Part shown: piece by piece, positions 1,012 through 51,924 of the stretch | How the letters are laid out: every line of letters starts with the position of its first letter | Position numbering within the stretch: the first letter of the stretch is position 1 | Origin: Pseudarthrobacter sp. W1I19 | GTDB taxonomy: Bacteria > Actinomycetota > Actinomycetes > Actinomycetales > Micrococcaceae | DNA length: 64,000 nt | Assembly (NCBI RefSeq): GCF_030817835.1 | Contig: NZ_JAUSZR010000001.1 | Span: 1,054,001 to 1,118,000, forward strand | Direction: 5' to 3' | Position numbers and translations under genes: made by a program | The notes under the pieces: model-generated | Seen by the model: only the letters and a program-made list of their open reading frames with translations | Told to the model about the DNA's origin: nothing | Databases searched by the model: none

Positions 1012-4000
1012 TTAGCGGGCGCGTCCGTTCGCGGTGCGAGTCACTGAGCCTAGCTTCGCATCGGTGACGCCACCGGCTACAACTTCGATGCGTGCGTCTA
1101 TCTGTTCGTTACCGATGAACACGCGAACCTCTGGAGCGCCCACGTTGAAAGCAGGCGCAGCGAACGACTGAGCCCTGTACTCCCGCCCACCATTCGCATA
1201 ACCCGGCAACTTCGGGAACGTGCCCGCGTTGATCGCAGCAAGCTCACGGTTATAGCGGTCTGACGAGCCGCGGTTAACAATCCACTCGCCAGCATCCACA
1301 CGAACTTTCGGCATGCCCATAGGATCGATCCCTAGGAAACCGTCAGTTACAGCGGTACCCGGCCCGGACGTAGGCAACTGCCCGCCGTCCGCATAACCAG
1401 GAACCCGGCCACCAGTAGCAAGGCCACCACGCAGCGAACCGTTCTCCCTACCACCAACACCAGAACCCATACCGCCCGGGTCCTCAATAGTCTTCTTGAG
1501 AGTGGTCTCGTGGGTGGTGGCCCAGACGTCCATGAACACCTGCCTGCCGTCCAGGTTGTCAGCCTTACCCTTGATCTTGTCCAACTCGCTTGACGCTTTG
1601 TCGTTGACCCAAGTGTCGATGGGTACCTCGTTGGGGATACCAAGCGCCTTACGGGCCATAGCGTCGGCCGCGTCGCCCGTGATGCCCAACTGCCCGGCTG
1701 CACGGATCAGGTCGTTATACGAGGTCCACAGGTTCTTCTGCAGTTCGGCCTGCGCGGCGGCGCTGCCCTGCGTGGCCAGCGTCTCAGCAGCAGTAGCCGT
1801 CATCGCAGCCATCGCAGACTGCGCGAGTCCGTTGTAGGCGGACTGGTTGGCGCGACCCTGCTCCGTGTTGATGTCCAGCGTCGTGCCGTTCTTCTTCACA
1901 GACTCAGTCACCGCATCAATAGCAGCCTGATACTGAATCTGAGCATCCGAAGCAGACAACGACAACAGACCAGCATTGAAAAGGACCTGCGTCCACCTCT
2001 CAATATCAGACACCGAACCGTCAGCCGCCAGACCGACCTCATCTAGTGCTTTCTCGATAGCCTCTGCCTGCTCCGCGGCGACCTCCGCAGCCTCCCCCGT
2101 TCCCTTGATGGCCGCCGCAGCCTTATCCCCACCAGCAGCGGCGGCTTCCATCTTGGCCGGCGTCTCCCCAAGAGCCCAGTTCAAAAGCTCCTGATCCGTC
2201 AACGCGACGTTCGAATCACTCGCCATCTTCCGCAACGAATCAAGATACTCCGGGAACCGCTCACCCACAGTCTCCAAACTGATGCCCTGATTCTCCGCAG
2301 AGTCAGCAATGGACTTGAAACCCTTAGCCGCCAAATCCATATTGCCGCTGGAAGCAGCCGATGCCAGAGCCTGATCCGCTTTACTGATCCCATCAGCGAG
2401 CTTAGCCATGCCGTTATTGATCCCAAGGCTTGCACCGAAGGACTCAAGGGCGCTGTTGAAATCCTGGTTGATCAGCTTGTCCAGCGACTCGCCCACAGTG
2501 GAGATACTTCCCTCGAACTCCTTAGCCCCAACCTCCGAGAAGATCGAATCAAGCGAGCTCTTACTCTTATCCAGACCCACCAGCGCCTGCGTAAACTCCT
2601 CCACCGAGGCCGTAGCGGGCTGCATCGAGTTGTGAAGCCCCTTGATCGCCTCGAAACCAATGAACGCCCCAGAAGCCAAACCAGCGGCCTTACCCACCTT
2701 GCCCAAAGCACCGGCCGCCTTACTGCCTTCCGGCGCCAAGGTCTTGAAAGCGTTCATGCTGTCCAGGATCCGCGGCGTCAGCGTAAGGAACGCGCCGGCA
2801 CCAAGAGCAGCAACACCAGCAACCCCACCAAGCACGGACAGTGCGCCCTGGACAGGGGCAGGGAGTGAACCGAACGCCTGAGCAACACCAGCAGCGCCCT
2901 CAGCAACGCCTGAGATGATCGGCAGGAGTACGGCGCCAGCTTCGATAGCTGCGTCTTTGATGTTGTTCCAAGCAATCTGAACTTTCGCCTCGGTCGTTTC
3001 GTACCGCTTAGCGGCCTCCTCAGCGAGCGCGGAGTTAGAAGCCCATGCCTCATCCCCGAGCTTCAGAGAGTCCGCCAGCAGCCCACCAGCGCCCGCCAGG
3101 CGAAGGATAACGCCCGTTTCCTCAGTGCCCTTGATGCCCAGGTTAGCCATGGTGTCGATGACGTTGCCGCCAGATTCCTTGACCTTATTCAGGCCCTGAA
3201 CCATCATGTCAACGGCGCGAACAGGGTCAGTCTCAAAAGCAGCAGCGAAGTCCTTGGACGAAACCCCGGCAACCTTTGCGAGATTATCGAGCCCTTCGCC
3301 CCCAGTCTTCACATCGCCGTACATGCGCTGCATCACGCGGGAGATGACACCGCCGCCAAGCTCAGCCTCAATACCAACCGACGCCATAGCGTTCGCCAGG
3401 GCGAGCACGTCAGATTCAGAAGCACCAACGAGCTTTCCAGCACCAGCAATACGCTTGGCCATGCTAACAATCTCAGCCTCAGTAGAAGCGCCCGCGTTGC
3501 CAAGGGCCACGAGAGTAGCGCCGAAGCGTTCGACACCTCCTGAGCCTTCGCGCTGCATGGTTCCCATGACGTTCGAGATTTGGGCGATCGCGGTTGCTGC
3601 CTCGTCAGCGGAAAGGTTTGTCGTCTCACCGAGGGCAATCATGGTTTCCGTGAAGCCCACGACATCCTGGCGCTTCACACCGAGCTGCCCGGCTGCTTCT
3701 GCGACACCAGCGATTTCCTCGTGCGTCGCAGGCAGGGTTTTAGCCAAGCCCCTCAGCGATGATTCAAGTTCGTCCATCTGCTTAGGCGTGCCGTCAACAG
3801 TCTTGGTAACACCTGCCCAGGCGCTTTCCCAGTCCATCGCCGCCTTGCCAGCGAGCTCCAAACCACCTACAGCCGCGGTGCCGAAGCCAAGCATCGAAGT
3901 GCCGGCAGTGTCCCAAGCCTCGCGGTTCTTGTGCGCAGACTGAACCAGCCTGCCAAGGTGCGTATCGGCGCCGGCGCTTGCCTCCTCCGATACCTTCTTG

Positions 4001-10423: not shown

Positions 10424-10900
10424 GTGCAACGCCTTCGTGAGGCTAAAGGCTGGTCACAAGGGGAGCTTGCGCGGCGCATGGCAGCAGACGGATGGGACGG
10501 ATTCCATCAGACAACGATTAGCCGCATAGAGAAGGGCCAGCGTCCGGTTCGGTTGGCGGAAGCCCGCGCTCTTGCGAAGGTGCTAGAGAGCCAAGTTGGA
10601 CTTATGATGGCGCCTCCGGAATCCGAAATTCTAGAGTCTCTAGCCAACAACATCGGATTGATGCGACTGGCCAGAAGACGTATCTGGGCGCAACTTGAGG
10701 AGATGAACGAGGTCAATTTCATACTCAAGACCCTGATGGACGACGTGGAGAGAATCCCACGGGAACAGTGGGAGCGCCTGGGCTTATGGGAAGACGTGGC
10801 TGCGATGGTTGTCCCGGCTAGCCACATGCAGAACTGGTCGGCGGCTTCCCTGATCGCCGAGGCCTTGGAGGGTCCGCATGGCGTCGATCCAGAAGCGTGA
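10424..10900 (+). CDS. XRE-family HTH repressor of the element
   Basis: 158 aa from GTG 10424, the only usable start after an upstream stop. Residues 1-55 form a Cro/CI-type helix-turn-helix (REAKGWSQGELARRM, then QTTISRIEKGQRPV, then LAEARALAKVL). The rest is helical and probably dimerises. It lies divergent from the early operon and overlaps the integrase start by 23 nt, the usual repressor-integrase arrangement of actinobacterial integrative elements. No LexA-type cleavage motif is seen. Confidence 0.82.
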   Translation: MQRLREAKGWSQGELARRMAADGWDGFHQTTISRIEKGQRPVRLAEARALAKVLESQVGLMMAPPESEILESLANNIGLMRLARRRIWAQLEEMNEVNFILKTLMDDVERIPREQWERLGLWEDVAAMVVPASHMQNWSAASLIAEALEGPHGVDPEA

Positions 10901-11983
10901 CAACGGTTCTTGGCGGGCCCGATACCGTGACGATGCGGGCAAGGAACACGCCAGACACTTCCCGAGAAAAATAGATGCTCAGCGGTGGCTGGATGAAGTC
11001 ACTGCTTCGGTGGTAACTGGCAGGTACGTGGATCCCAAGGCCGGGAAAATCACCTTCAGTGGTTTGAGCAATGGGCGGCTGCCCAGGTTTGGGCCACCGG
11101 TACGAAACTCAAGGCCGAACAAGCTCTAGCCGCTGCGACCTTCCGGGAGTCCCCGATTCGGGCGATCCTGCCGTCCCATGTTCAGGCATGGGTGAAGGGC
11201 CTGTCCGTCAGGTTGGCGCCGGCCACCGTGGCTGTCTATTACAACCTGGTTAGTTCCGCGTTTCGGGCTGCTGTCACGGATAAGGTCATCGCGGAGAACC
11301 CCTGCGCGGGGGCGAAGCTGCCCCGTAAGCGGCGCCGCGAAGCCGCGATGACCATCCCAGCACCCGAACAAGTCAAAGCCGCCCTAGATGTCGCCCCGGA
11401 ATGGTTTGCCCCGTACATCGCCGTTTGCGCCTTCGCTGGCTTACGTTTGGGCGAGGCCGCCGGGTTGCAGTTGGCTGATGTGGACTTCCTTCGGCGCACC
11501 ATCAGCGTCTCGCGGCAGATCCAGGGCAATACAAAAGCAAGCGCCGAAGTCGTTCCACCTAAGCATGGTTCCGAGAGGTGCGTTTATGCCGCGGACGAAC
11601 TCCTTCAGGTCCTCGCCCGTCATGTCGAAACCACGGGCGTCTTCGGTCGGGAGAAATGGCTGTTCGGCGCCGGGGGAACGTACTTCAATCGCAACTCCGC
11701 TGCCGACCGTTGGCGGCAGGTTCGGGAAGCCGCGGGCATAGGAGCGTTCACCCTGCATGATCTCCGTCATTTTTTCGTCTCGGGGCTCATAGCTGAGGGG
11801 TGCGACGTTGTGACAGTGCAACGGGCCGTTGGTCACGCAACGCCTTCAATAACTCTGAATACCTACAGCCACCTCTGGCCCATCGCTGAAGACAAAACGA
11901 GGACCGCAGGATCAATGCTGATCGCTGCGGTCCTCGACAATTCTGCGGACTATCCGCGGACTATCCGGAAAGCATCCCAGTAA
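10878..11983 (+). pseudogene. Tyrosine integrase with a 1-nt frameshift
   Basis: The frame from ATG 10878 gives an AP2-like arm-binding domain (SIQKRDNGSWRARYRDDAGK...) and reads ITFS at 11052-11060. The coding frame then continues in +2 as WFEQWAAAQVWATGTKLKAE, which fits the family; one base is missing between 11059 and 11060. The rest has the core-binding and catalytic domains: R in FAGLRLGEA, K in PPKHGSER, HxxR in LHDLRHFF, H in VGHATPS, and Tyr in LNTYSHLW. All catalytic residues remain. As read, no full-length integrase is made, so the element should be unable to move itself. Confidence 0.85.
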
Positions 11984-13114: not shown

Positions 13115-13196
13115 GGCAGATTACCCGAGCGGCCAAAGGGGGCTGACTGTAAATCAGCTGGCAACGCCTACGGGGGTTCGAATCCCTCATCTGCCA
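13115..13196 (+). tRNA. tRNA-Tyr (GTA)
   Basis: 82 nt. Acceptor GGCAGAT pairs with ATCTGCC; anticodon stem-loop CTGACTGTAAATCAG gives anticodon GTA. Type II tRNA with a variable arm (TGGCAACGCCTAC) and a T-loop GGTTCGAATCC. The CCA end is not encoded. A terminator follows 12 nt downstream. Confidence 0.95.
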
Positions 13197-13207
13197 CCCA
13201 AGGAAAA

Positions 13208-13239
13208 GCCTCCGGAACCACAGGTTCCGGAGGCTTTTT
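13208..13239 (+). terminator. Rho-independent terminator of tRNA-Tyr
   Basis: A perfect 12-bp stem GCCTCCGGAACC / GGTTCCGGAGGC with a 3-nt loop, followed by TTTTT. Confidence 0.92.
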
Positions 13240-13310
13240 CGTGTCTTCACGCCGGTGCCGGGTGCCAGGCTTAGCGGGCTTAGCGGGGCTAGCGGCGCCC
13301 GGAGAACGCC

Positions 13311-13555
13311 CATCAGCTCCTGCACCCAATCGGGCAACCCTTCATCAGCTCCTGCACCCAATCGGGCAACCCTCCATCACCCCCTGATCAAAATACTGAA
13401 ACCCTCCATCACGCTTGGGAGAACAGGAGTTATCGATGCTCGGGCCGCGGAAGTACGGCCCTCGATATTGATCTGGAAGTGATGGGGCAACGCGCCAGTA
13501 GCGGCAGGAGCTGATGGAGGGTTGCAGGGAAAACGGCAGGTGCTGATGGGGCGTT
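13311..13555. repeat. Phased 32-bp repeat array in inverted arrangement
   Basis: The 590-bp gene-free stretch 13242-13831 contains units that start with CATCA every 32 bp: 13311, 13343, 13375 and 13407 on the plus strand, and on the minus strand with TGATG at 13480, 13512 and 13544. The unit boundary AACCCT(C/T)CATCA is the conserved part (13336, 13368, 13400; TGATGGAGGGTT at 13512). Units 1 and 2 are nearly identical and unit interiors otherwise diverge. The arms converge on a small hairpin (ATCGA...GGGCCG / CGGCCC-TCGAT, 13432-13466). I see no gene in the rest of the gap. Confidence 0.8.
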
Positions 13556-13831
13556 GGGAGGGAGGGCCCGCAAGAGCGCGCAACCTGCAGCTCCGCAAGC
13601 ACCCCAGCCACCTTCAGCGTCAATAGTCTTGCCATCGCCGATTTCCCGCGCCTTTACTGGGAAGCAGGCCCTTTCCATACACACGTTTTGTCCTATAACC
13701 CAGGTGCCGGAGCTGGCCGGCAAAGGCGGCAAAACCGCCGTCGACATGTCAGTGGCACGGGCGTAGTCTGGCACCATCGGCGCAAGTGCCCGATGCCCTG
13801 CGTCGATCAAAGAATCGATAAAGGAGGATCA

Positions 13832-14263
13832 ATGAGTGCCGTACGTGAATTCATGACTACGGACGCGCAGTGTATTAAGGAAAACCAGTCCCTCGCAGAT
13901 GCTGCCCGGATGATGCTGGACCTTGACTGCGGATCGTTGCCGATCTGCGGTGACGACGGCAAGTTGAGGGGCATGATCACCGACCGTGACATCGTGCTCA
14001 AGTGCGTGGCTGCAGGCCGCGATCCGCGCGAAATGATGGCCCGCGACCTCGCCTCGGGCCGGCCCTACTGGATCGACGCCGATGCAAACGTTGATGAGGC
14101 CATCGACATGATGGAAACCCACCAGGTCCGCCGGCTTCCTGTCATCGCCGACCACAAGCTGGTGGGGATCCTGAGCCAGGGAGACATCGCCCGCAATTAC
14201 TCCGAGCAGCGCGTGGGCGAGCTGGTGGAGCACATCTCCGAACGCAAACGGATGAACGCTTAA
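13832..14263 (+). CDS. Two-CBS-domain protein
   Basis: 143 aa from ATG 13832 behind a near-perfect AAGGAGG site. Two CBS domains fill the protein: ~7-60 (ending GMITDRDIVLKCVA) and ~74-128 (ending GILSQGDIARNYSE). CBS pairs bind adenine nucleotides and sense energy or stress state; stand-alone forms are common in actinobacteria and often stress-induced. Single-gene unit with its own terminator. Confidence 0.88.
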   Translation: MSAVREFMTTDAQCIKENQSLADAARMMLDLDCGSLPICGDDGKLRGMITDRDIVLKCVAAGRDPREMMARDLASGRPYWIDADANVDEAIDMMETHQVRRLPVIADHKLVGILSQGDIARNYSEQRVGELVEHISERKRMNA

Positions 14264-27694: not shown

Positions 27695-27760
27695 CCCAAC
27701 TAAGTAGCGCTAAGTGTCGGTTTGGCGCTCCAGAGCGACAGTTAGCGCTACCTAGTTGGG
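27695..27760. repeat. 66-bp palindrome between convergent genes
   Basis: Arms CCCAACTA.GTAGCGCTAA.TGTCG and CGACAGTTAGCGCTACCTAGTTGGG around a ~16-nt centre. Works as a bidirectional terminator between the hydrolase and acyl-CoA dehydrogenase genes; REP-like in appearance. Confidence 0.8.
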
Positions 27761-35824: not shown

Positions 35825-35889
35825 GGAGTTTTTGTCCAGATATGGAGACTTCCGCGCGACGGAAACCTGCATATCTGGACAAAAACTCC
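35825..35889. repeat. 65-bp element with perfect 20-bp inverted repeats
   Basis: GGAGTTTTTGTCCAGATATG (35825-35844) is exactly matched in inverse by 35870-35889. The 25-nt centre has its own TTCCG/CGGAA pairing. Too short for a transposon with a gene; may be a REP/MITE-like palindrome or a regulatory hairpin. It lies just beyond the helicase terminator. Confidence 0.85.
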
Positions 35890-45282: not shown

Positions 45283-45324
45283 GCAGCAGGTGCCGTTATG
45301 CAGCCTCATAACGGCACCTGCTGC
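45283..45324. repeat. Perfect 18-bp hairpin downstream of the aldo/keto reductase
   Basis: GCAGCAGGTGCCGTTATG (45283-45300) and its exact inverse 45307-45324 with a 6-nt loop. Strong RNA hairpin; no T-run, so terminator or REP-like element. Confidence 0.8.
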
Positions 45325-51862: not shown

Positions 51863-51924
51863 GAGCGGCCCCGCCCCGCATAACCGGTGCCGGGCAGCAA
51901 CGGTTGTGCGGGTCAGGGCCGCTC
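51863..51924. repeat. Palindrome containing the right copy of the 40-bp repeat
   Basis: GAGCGGCCC (51863-51871) pairs with GGGCCGCTC (51916-51924); inside, CCGCA.AACCG pairs with CGGTTGTGCGG. Likely bidirectional terminator between the AbiEi-like gene and asd; also holds the second direct-repeat copy (51876-51915). Confidence 0.75.

Follow-up and report, generated by a model that had tools for sequence, protein, structure and literature searches.

The window, by which we mean the whole 64-kb stretch of the Pseudarthrobacter sp. W1I19 genome that was analysed, carries a tRNA-Tyr gene closed by an ordinary intrinsic terminator, and between that terminator and the gene of a CBS-domain protein lies an array of 32-bp units in two opposed arms, followed by one end of an IS1249-type insertion sequence (Table 1). 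Four CATCA starts point inward (13311, 13343, 13375 and 13407), their reverse complement, TGATG, begins at 13480, 13512 and 13544, and a small hairpin occupies the centre, which bears out at every position the original prediction of CATCA units at 32-bp steps on opposite arms around such a hairpin. That prediction also held that interiors vary and only a box of about 12 bp is kept; this stands in part, the first two units of the plus arm being 97% identical. The 12-mer AACCCTYCATCA matches exactly at 13336, 13368 and 13400 on the plus strand and at 13512 on the minus strand, and with at most one mismatch it has five matches in the window against 0.34 expected, a number reached in none of 100 shuffles. 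The arms (61 nt) are 74% complementary and are separated by 70 nt.

Table 1. Features of the tRNA-Tyr/CBS interval, in window coordinates
Feature	Position	Strand	Basis or remark
tRNA-Tyr (gta)	13115..13198	+	ARAGORN; Rfam tRNA, 56.4 bits
Ordinary intrinsic terminator of tRNA-Tyr, ahead of the array	13204..13238	+	16 pairs, loop of 3, then T-run
CGGTGCCG, left copy of flanking direct repeat (7 of 8 bp; possible target duplication)	13253..13260
Plus arm, unit 1	13311..13342	+	Repeat-family comparison
Plus arm, unit 2	13343..13374	+	97% identity with unit 1
Plus arm, unit 3	13375..13406	+	66% identity with unit 1
Plus box nearest the centre, CCCTCCATCA	13402..13411	+
Dyad hairpin GGGCCG/CGGCCC	13442..13461		Sequence and fold; centre longer than the usual 7- or 15-nt gap
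Minus box nearest the centre	13480..13489	-
Minus box, second	13512..13521	-
Minus box, outermost	13544..13553	-
IS1249-type insertion sequence, right end	13595..13701		Tip is the terminal repeat
AGGTGCCG, right copy of flanking direct repeat	13702..13709
CBS-domain protein gene, next downstream	13832..14263	+	Pfam PF00571

The array is one copy of a genus-restricted set of REP/BIME-like extragenic palindrome arrays, named here Arthrobacter 32-mer arrays, and is a worn, CATCA-type member adjoining an IS1249-type end behind an intact tRNA-Tyr terminator. Because a canonical terminator precedes it and an insertion sequence end adjoins, it is probably a spare or worn copy at this locus. The terminator is also present in the 16 relatives inspected by eye, displaced in one of them (G006). 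Across the tRNA-Tyr/CBS interval of 16 relatives there is one full array (G035, 8 + 2 boxes), one remnant (G007) and no array in 14, at least three of which (G004, G025 and G015) show unrelated palindromes by eye; in G001 the flanks of the inserted block meet directly and the block is absent. The IS1249-type end is 78-83% identical to ends at eight loci of other genus genomes and 76% identical to one at a second W1I19 locus (L171), and an IS1249-type transposase (NF033544) is found at a relative's locus (L159). At L171 (~2862-3284) a second array lies behind tRNA-Ser, between IS1249-type ends. The window copy resembles an IS1249-type MITE in having such an end with its right terminal repeat intact and a possible 8-bp target duplication (7 of 8 bp); its left terminal repeat is unrecognisable and, unlike in such MITEs, the exact terminal motif occurs only at L171 among the 80 named loci described below and 24 own loci scanned. 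Carriage of the window copy by a plasmid or phage was rejected, as distant blastn found no match in either collection. About 1-3 kb before tRNA-Tyr, an XRE-type regulator frame and broken-looking tyrosine-recombinase-like frames (10424-11983, by eye) are possibly the remains of an integrated element.

Checked genome-wide and in relatives, the 32-bp step proves to be a property of a genomic family. Phased pairs of degenerate boxes, with at most one mismatch, match 85 times in W1I19 (reversed-pattern control 0), a genome with about 34 array clusters (36 entries, minus one duplicate and one pair inside aceB). The same search gives 1 to 231 matches in each of 36 other genomes of the genus (controls 0 to 7), some of which carry just 1-4, and 0 to 5 (controls 0 to 2) in 22 genomes of other families of the order. 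A stricter pattern matches two of 396 actinobacterial genomes, both of this genus, and none of the other 394. In a scan of GTDB contigs, the matches listed (80 loci) belong to Arthrobacter, Pseudarthrobacter, Paenarthrobacter or an unnamed Micrococcaceae bacterium. These 80 named loci (626 kb) were selected because they carry an array; the pattern that retrieved them was of the CTCTCA/GCTCA type, and CATCA-type arrays are under-represented among them. Boxes do not occur at random spacing elsewhere, and on this point too the original prediction survives: in the named loci 363 of 374 boxes lie within 140 nt of another, leaving 11 single boxes against four matches of the reversed-pattern control, and six 20-kb stretches from four genomes, chosen regardless of arrays (120 kb), hold none. 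The motif GGCNGCACCGCCGTCGNACTT, a CATCA-type centre, has scattered matches in all 61 genomes searched, from which we conclude nothing. In Arthrobacter sp. B2a2-09 (L225, 6365-6888) three whole palindromic elements stand 184 bp apart, so whole elements also duplicate in tandem.

Dispersed, extragenic and palindromic, with many copies per genome, the arrays fall under the broad description of REP and BIME sequences, which the accessible part of PMC3733652 gives as dispersed extragenic palindromes, in opposite orientation, located behind genes in tandem or convergent arrangement and frequently clustered. Dispersal, palindromy, opposite orientation, place behind genes and clustering are shared by the arrays; they differ in the direct, phased 32-bp half-sites of each arm and in being seen just in Arthrobacter and close kin, and from GTAG/RAYT REPs also in that no RAYT was found and the GTAG tag is missing. 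The main text of PMC3733652 contains neither the word Arthrobacter nor the word Actinobacteria, the accessible part of PMC5217627 lacks the word Arthrobacter, and RepRanger (PMC12306157, in its accessible part) has a table of predicted counts for Arthrobacter livingstonensis and no description of a family there. Among the papers listed in literature searches that covered few subscription journals, none describes these arrays. We class Arthrobacter 32-mer arrays as a new family of the REP/BIME-like kind.

A typical copy has a dyad with one to several inward-pointing boxes on each side, each 32 bp from the next. The logo of 196 distinct units reads (G/A)ACGCTC(T/G)CTCAC.T, followed by a weak GCG and, at positions 22-25, an AT tract that lies about midway between the GC-rich boxes. 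In a two-box scan of four genomes, with 7-37 nt allowed between boxes, 141 of the 150 pairs listed (323 counted) stand at 32 bp and the other nine at 30, 31 or 33. Spacings in the named loci are 32 bp in 206 cases, 31 in six and 33 in two, with further peaks at 64, 96 and 128. Measured start to start, inward pairs peak at 17 bp, at 25 bp and at these values plus multiples of 32, where outward pairs have no comparable peak; some of all these pairs are fixed by the fetch pattern. Outside that pattern, where any spacing from 20 to 44 was admitted, neighbouring boxes keep exactly 32 bp in 131 of 144 cases and come within 1 bp of it in 143. Unit interiors of different loci average 40% identity, and box pairs with a measured interior identity below 0.5 are still at 32 bp in 62 of 71 cases. 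Some last units were compared with the centre in that measurement; of the 74 pairs that a further unit follows, 70 keep the 32-bp step. Diverged units (less than 0.8 identity to the neighbour) that have no partner in the opposite arm keep the step in 66 of 75 cases (73 within 1 bp), those with a partner in 36 of 40, again with spacings of 20-44 allowed; in an earlier run, which allowed two mismatches, just spacings of 31-33 were visible and the 58 one-plus-one arm pairs include chance matches. Expansion by near-identical units is also evident, since 62 of 177 units in arms of at least three boxes share 80% identity or more with a neighbour.

Each genome moreover writes its boxes in its own dialect. 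In 17 genomes and 49 of the 80 named loci, different loci of a genome agree at box position 6 in 0.97 of comparisons and different genomes in 0.44, a result equalled in 0 of 500 label permutations. Within one element the agreement is 0.91 for inner, 0.95 for outer and 0.90 for crossed boxes (permuted 0.42), and this near equality means that pairing alone is not its cause. Genome relatedness may explain part of the agreement; the permutations here and for the arm covariation below treat genomes as unrelated. Together, the 32-bp register of partnerless diverged units and the box dialects speak for a DNA-binding partner and for the phased multi-site binding region that the original prediction had offered as one possibility.

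The arrays stand behind genes. In the named loci, 82 of 98 elements could be classified (13 at locus edges and three inside called genes were dropped), of which 39 are in convergent, 40 in tandem and three in divergent regions, against 62, 131 and 46 when every intergenic region of 60 nt or more in the same loci is counted, element-bearing ones included; the gene calls here and below, from a home-made finder with codon usage trained on long high-GC3 ORFs, are approximate. An element lies within 200 nt of 96 gene 3' ends, at a median distance of 19 nt and in 61 cases at 30 nt or less. This position behind genes, rarely between divergent ones, is that of REP and BIME sequences broadly. The original prediction had placed its array beside a tRNA, an arrangement that recurs in W1I19, where nine of the ~34 clusters, mostly of the CATCA type, lie ~77-144 nt behind tRNA or 5S rRNA, and that fails in the named loci, where no element is near a tRNA (five tRNA genes in four loci). 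At three W1I19 rRNA operons the arrays (L107, 1926; L174, 2876; L176, 2441) lie 127-129 nt behind 5S rRNA. Boxes in tandem regions show no sense-strand bias (83 versus 86), and single-direction arrays there run five with and eight against transcription. In detected ordinary terminators, gene ends that have an element show no difference from those that lack one (18 of 112 versus 17 of 140). Other hairpins are fewer beside elements than elsewhere (9 of 52 versus 32 of 87, p=0.02), a difference that loses significance when at least 60 nt (9 of 32 versus 32 of 87, p=0.51) or at least 100 nt (8 of 25 versus 28 of 63, p=0.34) of free sequence is required.

As RNA the elements fold exceptionally well, three 2+2 elements reaching between -73.5 and -81.4 kcal/mol over 117 nt, with z from -11.5 to -14.6. 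The whole window array has a z of -6.9; its halves (z 0.6 and -1.1) are not unusual. In L119 the fold consists of a 21-bp helix, an open internal loop of 10 x 10 nt, an 18-bp helix and a 5-nt loop. The arms of 39 elements with a gap of 15 agree above permuted pairs both immediately beyond the inner box (positions 29-32) and within it (box positions 38 and 39); in 26 elements with a gap of 7 they covary just at 30, 38, 39 and box position 6, and the interiors of both arms are less alike than permuted. This inner-stem covariation implies that the folded single strand matters too. The AT tracts of paired arms are mostly unable to pair (39 elements of opposite sign, 16 of the same, p=0.003), so that the internal loop is kept open. 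A strand polarity of the tract with transcription was rejected, the sense strand of tandem elements carrying T in 16 and A in 10, with four ties. C exceeds G on the box strand of the arms, with a skew of 0.35 (142 arms) versus 0.06 in 199 element-free 3' regions. By eye, no T-run directly follows the stem of the inner hairpins, which in this respect are not canonical intrinsic terminators. In the L117 and L119 folds CGTC pairs with GACG, and this separates the arrays from the CGTC-tagged REPs, for which the accessible part of PMC3733652 gives an unpaired CGTC, stems of 8-9 bp, loops of 4-5 nt and no dedicated transposase. The likeness extends to the lack of a dedicated transposase, CGTC at the hairpin foot and loops mostly of 3-5 nt; in our arrays GACG/CGTC lies inside a stem of 11-15 bp or more.

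At two orthologous sites the arrays alternate with other hairpins. Between genes for an ABC protein and an oxidoreductase (element L121), scored by eye in 26 genomes after four incomplete ones were dropped and with the left border of G024 extrapolated, nine carry just the array, 13 just an ordinary GC hairpin and four both, and none lacks both; orthologous copies of the array keep boxes and spacing although their interiors have diverged. A tree of 29 genomes, 26 of them with both traits, implies at least four changes of array presence at this site. In independent pairs the hairpin changes opposite to the array in 2.4 of four, otherwise shows no difference and never goes the same way; with just four such pairs (median p 0.5) significance is out of reach. 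Behind aceB an inverted repeat of 13-29 pairs occupies one spot in 26 of 30 genomes, belonging to the Arthrobacter 32-mer family in 10, to an unrelated kind (GCGAACNGGCAGTTAA-like or near) in 14 and to others in two; of the four genomes without it, G015 is cut by a contig end and boxes are visible there by eye. A second kind, a GCGAACNGGCAGTTAAGGCCC-like long hairpin of 16-29 pairs (G016, G002, G005, G020, G024, G014, G018, G010 and others), stands where W1I19 has its 32-mer array. Exact motifs of the other hairpin kinds are absent from the 626 kb of named loci and from 137 kb of own loci. The aceB 3' region of W1I19 (L368, ~2074-2162) and of relatives (L369-L397) also holds a conserved palindromic segment of ~90 nt, TTCCGTCYGCCGGGCCGGCACGCCC...GACGGA, which follows aceB in most of the genus genomes read; at L368 Rfam has no family at gathering score, its matches lying far below.

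Position, alternation and fold make an exchangeable, bidirectional 3'-end hairpin, serving as terminator or insulator, the best reading of Arthrobacter 32-mer arrays, one that we hold tentatively and place a little short of probable. The function we infer at gene 3' ends would work as follows. RNA polymerase arriving from either flanking gene would first transcribe the C-rich boxes, which point inward, and next the dyad, the RNA made would fold into a very stable hairpin, and this hairpin would end the RNA or protect its 3' end and would limit readthrough into a convergent gene. Several observations count against this: the missing T-run, boxes and single-direction arrays that favour neither strand in tandem regions, the location of some arrays behind tRNA or rRNA genes, the canonical terminator already ahead of the window array and, after length matching, no significant shortage of terminators or other hairpins beside elements. 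The small number of independent pairs in the alternation test, the narrower covariation and less alike interiors of gap-7 elements and the unremarkable folds of the window's half-arrays weigh on the same side. The 32-bp spacing of units without a partner arm also counts against a hairpin, because a hairpin does not demand such spacing.

The arrays could instead be selfish or neutral REP-like repeats without host function, spread by slippage, whole-element duplication and an unknown or borrowed transposase, a possibility that we take seriously but consider doubtful. On this account, and with equal doubt, they would survive behind genes as the places of least harm. It would suit the swing from 1 to 231 phased-pair matches across one genus, growth by near-identical units and by whole copies as at L225, the absence of the array from 14 of 16 relatives at the tRNA-Tyr site, the two W1I19 copies (window and L171) beside or between IS1249-type ends, and the tests in which no significant terminator shortage appeared. 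Such repeats would not, however, be expected to keep boxes and spacing in orthologous copies with diverged interiors, to covary between the arms of gap-15 elements, to hold their spacing in diverged units or to leave an array or a terminator-like hairpin in 26 of 26 genomes at the L121 site.

Somewhat less likely still is a DNA topology site, where gyrase or another DNA-wrapping protein would bind and remove positive supercoils behind strongly transcribed genes or between convergent ones. The BIMEs of E. coli are known for supercoil removal through gyrase-type binding, and placement rich in convergent and poor in divergent regions, the nine W1I19 arrays behind tRNA or 5S rRNA, the 32-bp register held without pairing partners and the AT tract midway between GC-rich boxes are all consistent with such a site. 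Yet the tRNA link is absent from the named loci, the usual dyad gaps of 7 and 15 differ by 8 bp, which is no helical turn, and genome-wide one-letter dialects would be odd for gyrase.

We regard as decidedly unlikely that the boxes are double-strand sites of a candidate Arthrobacter-specific DNA-binding protein, which would stack every three turns along the same face of the helix and block RNA polymerase from either side. Eukaryotes terminate transcription at roadblocks of the TTF-I/Reb1 kind, to which such arrays would, by analogy and with the same small likelihood, be a bacterial counterpart. The specificity of the protein would have to drift between species with the boxes of each genome following, an improbable addition to the same degree, and one that would account for one-letter dialects shared by unlinked loci as well as for the 32-bp register of partnerless arms.

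A REP or REPIN family mobilised by a RAYT, suggested by inverted short palindromes behind genes, is hardly credible, since the Pfam family Y1_Tnp is found in none of 25 genus genomes and in one of 39 overall (from another family of the order), five of 14 control genomes gave it where the genus genomes did not, and the logo of 196 distinct units shows no GTAG tag and direct 32-bp repeats. The REP-type element of the original prediction is accordingly upheld as dispersed, extragenic, palindromic, located 3' of genes and genus-wide; as an element driven by a RAYT transposase, the check it had proposed, it is not. Uptake signals of Pasteurellaceae and Neisseria have genome dialects. The arrays share these with them, and also the placing of a short core in inverted copies at the ends of genes, described for uptake-signal terminators in the accessible part of PMC1852404, but a DNA uptake signal of the Haemophilus or Neisseria kind that partly serves as a terminator is extremely improbable, because single boxes lie close to background level (11 of 374, control 4) and are absent from the 120 kb chosen regardless of arrays, copies are far fewer than the 1,000 or more per genome generally given there, and the direct repeats are phased. 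Gene cassettes of the attC-like kind were rejected, the genes between paired arrays looking ordinary and differing by place (DUF559 by Pfam, others by eye), as was a CRISPR array, since at many sites the units run toward a shared dyad.

The REP families known best are linked to a transposase, and the role of REPs in the cell is unsettled. Arthrobacter 32-mer arrays are a REP-like family for which the search for that transposase found none; they keep to a strict 32-bp ruler and have genome-wide box dialects, and related species swap a terminator-like hairpin, a 32-mer array or an unrelated long hairpin at the same 3' site. These natural swaps and family traits open the role of extragenic palindromes behind genes to direct tests in soil bacteria that are easy to grow.

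The window holds four other long inverted repeats of 18-27 pairs (27695-27760, 35825-35889, 45283-45324 and 51863-51924), unlike in sequence, each at most 80 nt from a called gene border.
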